Origin: Hemileia vastatrix
Lineage: Eukaryota; Basidiomycota; Pucciniomycetes; Pucciniales; Zaghouaniaceae
NCBI GenBank assembly: GCA_030280995.1
Contig: JASXTE010000002.1
Coordinates: forward strand, 1,178,001 to 1,242,000
Direction: 5' to 3'
DNA: 64,000 nucleotides
Within the stretch, counting starts at the first letter, position 1. Each line of letters begins with the position of its first letter. The notes under the pieces were generated by a model. It was not told the origin of the DNA. It did no database searches and was given only the letters and a program-made list of their open reading frames with translations. Below, in pieces: positions 56,692 to 57,776 of the stretch. A program made the translations under genes and the position numbers.

Positions 56692-56710
56692 TGTCACGTG
56701 GCGCGTGACA
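56692..56710. promoter_or_regulatory. Palindrome and TATA of D antisense gene
   Basis: TGTCACG-TGGCG-CGTGACA, 7-bp arms, containing CACGTG. It lies 11 bases before TATAAG (56721-56726) and about 105 bases before the ATG at 56816. Likely a regulator-binding site, by inference. Confidence 0.45.
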
Positions 56711-56815
56711 GATGCCCGGGTATAAGAACTTGAGCTCCGTTGAGAGTAAAACATATTTCCCACACTAATTTCCCTTTCTGTTTACTTATTTATTATTTCA
56801 TCACTTTAATTCATT

Positions 56816-57776
56816 ATGACGGACTTTCCTACACTGACTCCCACGCCTCCACACCCTAAAGCGGATGGGGGTGTTGTCACACGGCAATTTTCAAAGACTT
56901 GCACGGCTTGCGAGTCAATGGAGTATTTCTGCGTGGAGAGCACGGCGACACGAGGGCCTTGCCAGAAGTGCGAGTTTTTCCAATGGAGAAGAGTGGCATG
57001 TGACGCCTTAGCAAAGAATGCCGACATCGAGAGTCGGCTTACTAAGACAAAGTATTGGGTGATCCCTAAAACGAAGGAAGTAGTGGAGGACATCTGGGAT
57101 GTGTCTATTGGGGACGATCAATCAGTGGGAGAGAATGAGGAAGAAGTCAAAGATGATGTGAACATCTGGGTGGCTAGGGCTTGGAACAAGAGGGGGGTCG
57201 TCGAGGAGGAAGTTGATGAATTGGTCGAAGAGGAGGAGGAAATTCCCAAAAAAACGATGGGTGGTCATTGAAAATGACGAAGATGAAAGGGAGGTGGCAG
57301 AGAAGGTCACTCCTAGATTATTTTTGGAGCCTGACCCAATCTTCGAAGTAGGTTCACTCTTTTATAATTTATAAATTTAGTTACTGATGATTCTGTTTTT
57401 TTAGAATTCAGACGTCATCATCGAGGCCCCTACGACAGAAGCATCAAATGTGGAAGCGACCCTTGTGGGACCCACTGCAGTGGAGGATAGATTACCAACT
57501 GTTACCTCGAGGGAGGAAAACGAAGAAACCCTCGATCAAGTTTGGTGGAAGAAACCTCGTCAGATTCGACGAGCGAAATATATTGAAGAATTCAGCGGCG
57601 AGATTGATAACAATATCGATTCCGCTTCCTTTGACGTAGCCGAGGAGTTACTTGAGCTTGGGGAATTGATTCCGGTAGGAGGGGGGGAGAATTTTGAGAA
57701 ATGTAGAAAGGAGATAAGGGAAATTTTGGAGAAGATGAAGGGATTGGTTCGGGAGAAGATAAAAGAGAAAATTTAA
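56816..57776 (+). pseudogene. Antisense gene of element D, Zn2Cys6-like protein, one frameshift
   Basis: Two exons, 56816-57348 and 57404-57776. The intron 57349-57403 runs GTAGGT...TTTTAG and joins in frame. The N-terminus holds six cysteines, CTACESMEYFC then CQKC then a last C: C-x2-C-x6-C-x9-C-x2-C-x9-C. That is the fungal Zn2Cys6 pattern except for a slightly long final spacing. Next comes a tryptophan- and acid-rich middle, then a second exon with KPRQIRRAKYIEEF and a lysine-rich coiled C-terminus ending KIKEKI. A run of seven A at about 57248 shifts the frame and stops it at 57271; one A fewer would continue through to the intron. It lies opposite to D's pol, with its own TATA box. A DNA-binding role is inferred from the cysteine pattern only. 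Confidence 0.7.

Follow-up and report, generated by a model that had tools for sequence, protein, structure and literature searches.

Why would an LTR retrotransposon carry an additional gene that runs opposite to its own genome, and what could the product do for the element? A 64,000-nucleotide stretch of the Hemileia vastatrix genome (the window) raises this question through an element, D, that bears a short plus-strand gene between pol and the 3′ LTR. An original prediction from this stretch described the gene as spliced and Zn2Cys6-like, and proposed that a second lineage in the window, element A, carries a cysteine-cluster gene at the same antisense position.

Element D carries a gene convergent with pol

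Element D is a chromovirus-type Ty3 LTR retrotransposon on the minus strand, and its 5′ end runs past the window edge. The minus-strand 3′ LTR (55905–56710) spans 806 bp with the termini TGTCAC...GTGACA, and the inner part of the 5′ LTR (63771–64000, minus strand), which continues beyond the window end, forms a partial second LTR with 93% identity to the first. The minus-strand gag (62520–63693) contains two in-frame TGA codons and one TAG ahead of the frame end, and pol (58859–62524, minus strand, PR-RT-RH-IN-chromodomain) is a single frame with seven in-frame TGA codons and no shift. The gag-pol of the window copy is broken by nine TGA and one TAG in total; every pol stop is TGA, and eight of the nine gag-pol TGA codons are preceded by T, a pattern that CGA-to-TGA change at CpG would produce. 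The best-scoring relatives of D pol include an ENA protein (64%), a Planoprotostelium protein (38%) and many Austropuccinia psidii proteins (up to 58–59%), with the chromodomain PF00385 present in several of them. Our classification of D as a chromovirus, with a Ty3 pol and a chromodomain after the integrase, is judged through one such PF00385-bearing relative, P0001, of which residues 3–653 of 654 align to window positions 60817–58862 with 63% identity. The D spacer also contains a MITE-like short inverted-repeat insertion (57873–58133) with a second copy at 24365–24614, and a similar insertion occurs at the exon 1/intron junction of another D copy, L026. An AT-rich satellite of ~605-bp units (48950–55900) directly adjoins the D 3′ LTR.

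The antisense gene occupies 56816–57776 on the plus strand, between the D 3′ LTR and the minus-strand pol, and is convergent with pol. Its leader and core promoter (56711–56815) contain CCCGGG and then TATAAG (56721–56726), in agreement with the predicted plus-strand gene with a TATA box. Exon 1 (56816–57347) opens with ATG at 56816, and exon 2 including the stop codon (57405–57776) is followed by AATAAA at 57777–57782, noted by eye. The predicted intron (57348–57404, GTAGGT...TTTTTTTAG) is in phase 0 and has a GC content of 0.22 (57350–57404) compared to 0.51 and 0.46 in the exons. In the window copy the reading frame is not continuous, because a 17-nt deletion in exon 1 shifts the frame and ends the 151-aa ORF at 57271. 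When the 3.1-kb region was shuffled 500 times, an ORF of at least 151 aa arose in three of the shuffles. Visual inspection of 56711–56740, beside the D 3′ LTR, showed no polypurine tract on the sense strand; the conserved antisense promoter (CCCGGGTATAAG) occupies the place where one is expected.

The antisense gene is present across the D family

We scanned the assembly (747.6 Mb, 791 contigs) for the antisense ORF and detected at least 150 places at ≥85% identity (150 of 150 scored, drawn from 6310 first-look candidates), with an open frame mostly of 193 aa. Twenty D places chosen by the antisense gene were fetched and aligned with the window to give 21 rows. Exon 1 adjoins the 3′ LTR in all 20 fetched copies, both LTRs are present in 16 (the LTR is interrupted in L028), and L027 yielded no exon 2. 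Within 14 copies, the two LTRs share 94.6–97.5% identity, and exact 5-bp target duplications are readable at 7 of 14 copies examined. TATAAG, the ATG and the GT donor are conserved in all 21 rows and the AG acceptor in 20. The prediction of an intron therefore holds for one predicted intron with GT..AG ends kept in 20/21 rows, at a length of 57 bp in place of the 55 bp first given. Exon 1 measures 549 nt in 16 rows and is open throughout in 11, and exon 2 reaches a stop at codons 56–61 in 11 of 21. The 17-nt deletion of the window copy, flanked by short direct repeats, is carried by 5 of 21 rows, and full length may therefore not always be needed.

Since these 20 copies had been picked by the gene, we picked 18 further copies by pol alone as a check from the other side, and inspected 2.4 kb 3′ of pol. 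These are the best-scoring of 91 listed pol places, well-preserved copies and not a random sample. Exon 2 was present in 18/18, although L030 and L033 have only part of it, and exon 1 in 14/18; the exact family cysteine pattern occurs in 12/18, two more (L037 and L044) have one cysteine changed, and the remaining four have no detectable exon 1. The pol-chosen copies form a second subfamily, D2, with exon 1 proteins mostly 70–77% and exon 2 proteins mostly 55–59% identical to those of the window. Among the 14 D2 copies that have exon 1, 13 carry a GTAAGT donor (search pattern GTAA[GT]T) together with TTACTGAT, a count that covers the donor side and TTACTGAT. Thus the antisense gene is real and family-wide: collected copies keep the gene, its strand, intron ends and cysteines, and D agrees with the aORF-3R definition in having, between pol and the 3′ LTR, an ORF that runs antisense to gag-pol and is present in most family copies among the well-preserved pol copies. 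Two tandem-like arrays, each with four pol matches at spacings of ~7.73 kb (G000:C34:28896131-28920714) and 7.72 kb (G000:C84:14586959-14611505), resemble D-family elements that share LTRs.

These copies also bear on the notion that the gene is a host gene captured by the window copy, or a decaying passenger. The GC3 of the antisense gene (0.52, compared to 0.35 in gag-pol) and the damaged state of the window copy would suit such an origin. However, the gene is family-wide and present in a diverged subfamily, and word-based searches found no host homologue. Neither of the two outcomes named beforehand as contrary, D copies without the gene or a capture private to this copy, was encountered, apart from the four pol-chosen copies without a detectable exon 1; capture in this copy alone is ruled out by the family-wide presence and by D2. 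What is left is an ancient capture, and we regard this explanation as very improbable.

Purifying selection acts on the antisense frame

Across the same seven copies, pN/pS is 0.24 in antisense exon 1 compared to 0.54 in pol, and 0.21 compared to 0.45 with CpG sites removed. Both other forward frames and two of the three reverse frames of the antisense exon give values of 1.2–2.0; the third reverse frame gives 0.30, as expected because it shares codon phase with the antisense gene. Among non-CpG variants in the antisense gene of 16 copies, those shared by at least two copies (N6/S24) differ sharply from singletons (N39/S21, p = 1e-4), and pol in nine copies shows the same kind of difference (shared N8/S14, singletons N103/S57, p = 0.018). 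CpG-type variants in the antisense gene show no such contrast (shared N33/S25, single N17/S20). Raw divergence is similar along D, yet pS reaches 0.20 in the antisense exon compared to 0.07 in pol of the same copies; old subfamily alleles are the likeliest cause, and this explanation is incomplete. Between D and D2, dN/dS is ~0.05 in the zinc-cluster codons, and in exon 2 it is 0.15 for the window against eight D2 copies, ratios that are rough because silent sites are saturated (pS 0.80). Together, these data identify the antisense gene as under purifying selection in its own frame.

Selection at the protein level bears on a further alternative, that the antisense transcript acts as RNA, with the ORF secondary. 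The gene is convergent with gag-pol, so that the two transcripts could form double-stranded RNA, and this option has been raised for plant antisense genes (PMC7264820). We consider it improbable, as it is weakened by the in-frame selection and by the conserved cysteines described below.

The encoded protein has Zn2Cys6 cysteine spacing

The family cysteine pattern is C-x2-C-x6-C-x12-C-x2-C-x6-C, with cysteines at residues 29, 32, 39, 52, 55 and 62 (cluster at 56900–57001 in the window, plus strand). All six are present in 19 of 21 D rows, the exceptions being the window (C55) and L011 (C39), and they are invariant in 16/16 D copies with unshifted exon 1 and in 17/17 rows of a combined D and D2 alignment restricted to copies free of stops and indels. 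The spacing originally read from this locus, C-x2-C-x6-C-x9-C-x2-C-x9-C, proved private to the damaged window copy: residue 55 is Phe in the window and Cys in the 20 other rows, and only six of the 21 rows have Cys at residue 49, most rows having Arg, His or Leu there. The spread at codon 49 (CGC in 9, TGC in 6, CTC in 3 and CAC in 3) would fit CpG deamination giving rise to a stray cysteine. A Zn2Cys6-type regular expression picked after that finding had been read (C-x2-C-x6-C-x5-12-C-x2-C-x6-9-C) has one match in the six frames of the window, none in 60 second-order Markov shuffles and none in 200,000 residue shuffles of the window's antisense protein. The PF00172 consensus is C-x2-C-x6-C-x5-12-C-x2-C-x6-8-C; the family pattern agrees with it, and the window copy itself does not match the cysteine set.

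The two halves of the cluster differ in charge. Classical PF00172 zinc clusters have basic residues between Cys2 and Cys3; D proteins have the non-basic ESMEYF or close variants there and basic residues between Cys5 and Cys6 (RWRRVA or close variants), so that the second half reads CEFCRWRRVAC in most copies. The window's protein is acidic overall (pI 4.5), with a net charge of −20 over residues 101–180 and 0 over the cluster (residues 27–66). A Pfam scan of the window ORF gave no match. Sub-threshold PF00172 matches were listed for nine of the 17 D and D2 members (E ≤ 10, best E 0.93); the first D member scores 9.1 bits against a gathering cutoff of 21, with residues 52–64 aligned to profile positions 3–15 of 39. 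These sub-threshold matches carry little weight alone, because the unrelated PF21733 (Death_3), listed for 4 of the 17 members, has a better E-value (0.059). Searches of ~5.8 billion proteins returned no relative at E ≤ 0.01 for ORF1 alone (15 candidates) and none at E ≤ 10 for the exon-joined protein (1738 candidates); the method needs shared 5-residue words, so distant relatives may escape it. A PDB sequence search gave no match for an 80-aa piece, and for the exon 1 alignment only a glutaredoxin-like protein (E 0.39). Scans of viral contigs recovered no relatives, and a single-sequence fold of the window ORF was too poor for use (pLDDT 38).

Relative to the fungal Zn(II)2Cys6 factors of the Gal4 type (PF00172), D therefore shares the six-cysteine spacing and a weak profile alignment, and differs in scoring below the family threshold, in having its basic half second and not first, and in being encoded by a retrotransposon. 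The same features bear on whether the product binds zinc in an accessory role, acting on element RNA or particles, for example in copy-number control or as a Gag partner, and not on DNA. The non-basic first half, the acidic body and the lack of a Pfam match above threshold speak for such a role, set against a cysteine spacing that is that of a DNA-binding zinc cluster and a second half that is basic. We view the accessory role as doubtful.

Separate histories of pol and the 3′ block

We compared four D2 copies to the window along the element. At the DNA level, exon 1 is 73% identical, exon 2 74–75%, the leader 81–87% over 66–67 nt and the LTR 74–91% depending on the piece. In contrast, pol is 94% identical to the window in all four D2 copies examined, three of which are also among the four copies used for the 3′ block, and 95.5% identical in the D copy L014. 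Because 73–91% stands against 94%, LTR, promoter and antisense gene form a block whose history differs from that of pol, and we read this separation as probable recombination between elements. The LTR end and promoter block are nearly unchanged between D and the four D2 copies despite the divergence of the LTR pieces; the D2 TATA box reads TATAAG in L029 and L040 and TATAAA in L034 and L039.

A putative regulator of the element's own transcription

Taken together, we favor, at a probability of roughly 0.5, the reading that this gene under purifying selection, with its predicted intron and predicted TATA promoter, encodes a predicted zinc-binding protein that likely regulates the element's own transcription. 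The TATA promoter just inside the 3′ LTR would drive an mRNA opposite to the genomic transcript that ends in the spacer, and this mRNA would be spliced at the predicted intron. The intron would survive retrotransposition because it is read backwards in genomic RNA; in antisense-intron reporters, an intron antisense to the genomic RNA is not spliced out during retrotransposition. The protein may adopt the fold of a binuclear zinc cluster and contact DNA through the second half of it, which is basic, and the acidic stretch of residues 101–180 could serve as an activation or protein-contact region. Such a protein would likely enter the nucleus and act on the element's LTR, and its targets would be the element's own LTR and leader, inherited with the gene as one block. 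The shared history of LTR, promoter and gene fits a protein kept together with its targets.

In favor of self-regulation we count the weak alignment of PF00172 to the second half of the cluster. Against it we count a first half in which the basic residues typical of the classical domain are missing, and the zero net charge of the window cluster. CGG/CCG target sites in the LTR were considered, and no clear pairs emerged: an inverted non-overlapping CGG/CCG pair in the LTR and leader is absent from the window, L014, L013 and the available stretches of four D2 copies, and a single one occurs in L016.

CpG content of the antisense gene

The genome around D is depleted of CpG, with observed/expected ratios of 0.36 in the whole window, 0.08 in the satellite and 0.02 in the pol region (40000–45699) of a further element, C (39736–46600), where depletion is far stronger than in D or A. 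The antisense exons retain more CpG (0.76 and 1.10) than D gag-pol (0.51–0.61), and TCG and other CpG contexts are both less depleted in them (p = 2e-4 and 6e-4). These values would suit a silencing or mutation antagonist, a protein that recognises element DNA and blocks CpG methylation or C-to-T mutation, as is thought for the TET/JBP proteins of fungal DNA transposons. Transposons of Pucciniomycotina have been argued to carry TET/JBP-type enzymes, with none found in a retrotransposon (PMC12730594). However, the antisense protein has no enzymatic domain that we could find, the higher CpG can follow from higher GC3, and a gene that keeps its own CpG does not thereby protect the element, as D pol has CpG-type TGA stops. 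The balance of CGA and TGA codons is not significantly different in gag-pol and in the antisense gene (Fisher test, p = 0.27). We judge an antagonist unlikely, and retain transcriptional self-regulation as the preferred reading.

A RIP-like index specific to TCG, of the kind described in PMC10502011 and computed with TCGA overlaps subtracted, is 0.81 in D gag-pol, 1.52 in element C and 2.69 in the A 3′ LTR. TCG-specific RIP in D is unsupported by its value below 1, although the in-frame stops are mostly TGA.

Relation to known antisense genes

By position, the D gene belongs to a known group of antisense genes that includes Boty brtn, Grande gene23 and the antisense ORFs of Retand. HTLV-1 HBZ, which is not known to be a zinc-cluster protein, offers a likeness of another kind. 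By its description, HBZ is an antisense-encoded nuclear regulator of a retroelement (PMC11963269). Boty (BcGypsy1) of Botrytis cinerea is, like D, a Ty3/gypsy element with a CHROMO domain (PMC4227169), and it likewise bears an additional antisense gene, brtn, in the interval from pol to the 3′ LTR (PMC7264820, PMC8365987). Boty differs in its ascomycete host, and the cited passages mention neither a zinc cluster nor an intron for brtn. In plants, Grande gene23 and the Retand/RIRE2 antisense ORFs occupy the same place between pol and the 3′ LTR; the cited accounts give the Grande gene its own promoter and a nuclear protein, and the Retand ORF a TRP28 domain (PF04195) with suggested DNA binding (PMC7264820, PMC11963269). 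Regulation has been suggested for these TRP28 ORFs, and Retand is described as a non-chromovirus lineage (PMC11963269), with a plant host and TRP28 where the fungal D has a zinc cluster. The function of antisense genes between pol and the 3′ LTR, in plant elements and Boty, is given as unknown in the papers cited here. Our searches of open-licence literature listings found no report of a fungal LTR element with an antisense gene for a zinc-cluster protein. To this group D adds a zinc-cluster-type protein with evidence of selection, an intron that is conserved and a 3′ block that can be separated from pol, in a fungus that the relatives of D pol would put close to the rusts. The domain type can be assigned, selection is strong, one genome holds at least 150 scored matches, and the 3′ block has its own history. 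The D gene is therefore a concrete and testable example of a retrotransposon that would encode a regulator of its own transcription, with a parallel in the distant lineage A of the same genome.

A cysteine gene in the distant element A

Element A lies on the plus strand, with LTR matches at 2460–3721 and 19912–21095. It is distant from D, much as the original prediction held for their RTs: D pol relatives match the A RT-RNase H part at 23–27%. A piece of D-family LTR (2006–2458) in opposite orientation, 84% identical, lies immediately ahead of the A 5′ LTR. The A cysteine ORF (17819–18160, minus strand) is in antisense position as read in the window copy, and at least 150 places match it (150 scored, 21474 candidates). 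Its pN/pS is 0.21 (80 codons, nine copies) compared to 2.4 and 0.96 in the other forward frames, and CTATAAATA occurs shortly upstream of its ATG in seven of eight fetched copies. Across nine copies, cysteines 13, 38, 41 and 48 are present in all, cysteine 23 in eight and cysteine 16 in three, so that all six are in register in only 3/9.

These counts qualify the proposal of cysteine-cluster genes antisense in two lineages: the A gene is antisense in the window copy and under selection, but its full six-cysteine set is found in a third of the copies examined. They also qualify the term Zn2Cys6-like, which the conserved cysteines strengthen in D, while PF00172 stays below threshold and A keeps the six in register so seldom. 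PF00172 reaches 12.1 bits in the first A member against the cutoff of 21, and in the L047 protein the first triad aligns to profile positions 19–35; on these sub-threshold alignments, the halves look reversed in order relative to the classical domain both in D and in A. A profile comparison between the D and A cysteine proteins revealed no convincing similarity (hhalign probability 1.7%, 13 columns, listed E 0.028, A first triad on D second), and leaves their homology unsupported.

The idea that selection favors the antisense arrangement is supported by the pol-chosen copies with the gene, by purifying selection in D and by the pN/pS of 0.21 in A. We offer, tentatively, the further possibility that unrelated LTR lineages of one fungus each adopted an antisense zinc-cluster DNA-binding gene with reversed halves, a module that travels with its own LTR and promoter, is exchanged independently of pol and would act as a family-specific transcription-factor switch in a CpG-depleted, repeat-rich genome. 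Pieces of a separate A region, 18705–19760, gave no Pfam match above threshold when scanned. There, A seems to carry a second, possibly spliced antisense gene that lies upstream of its cysteine gene and starts near 19750 below a TATA-like site.
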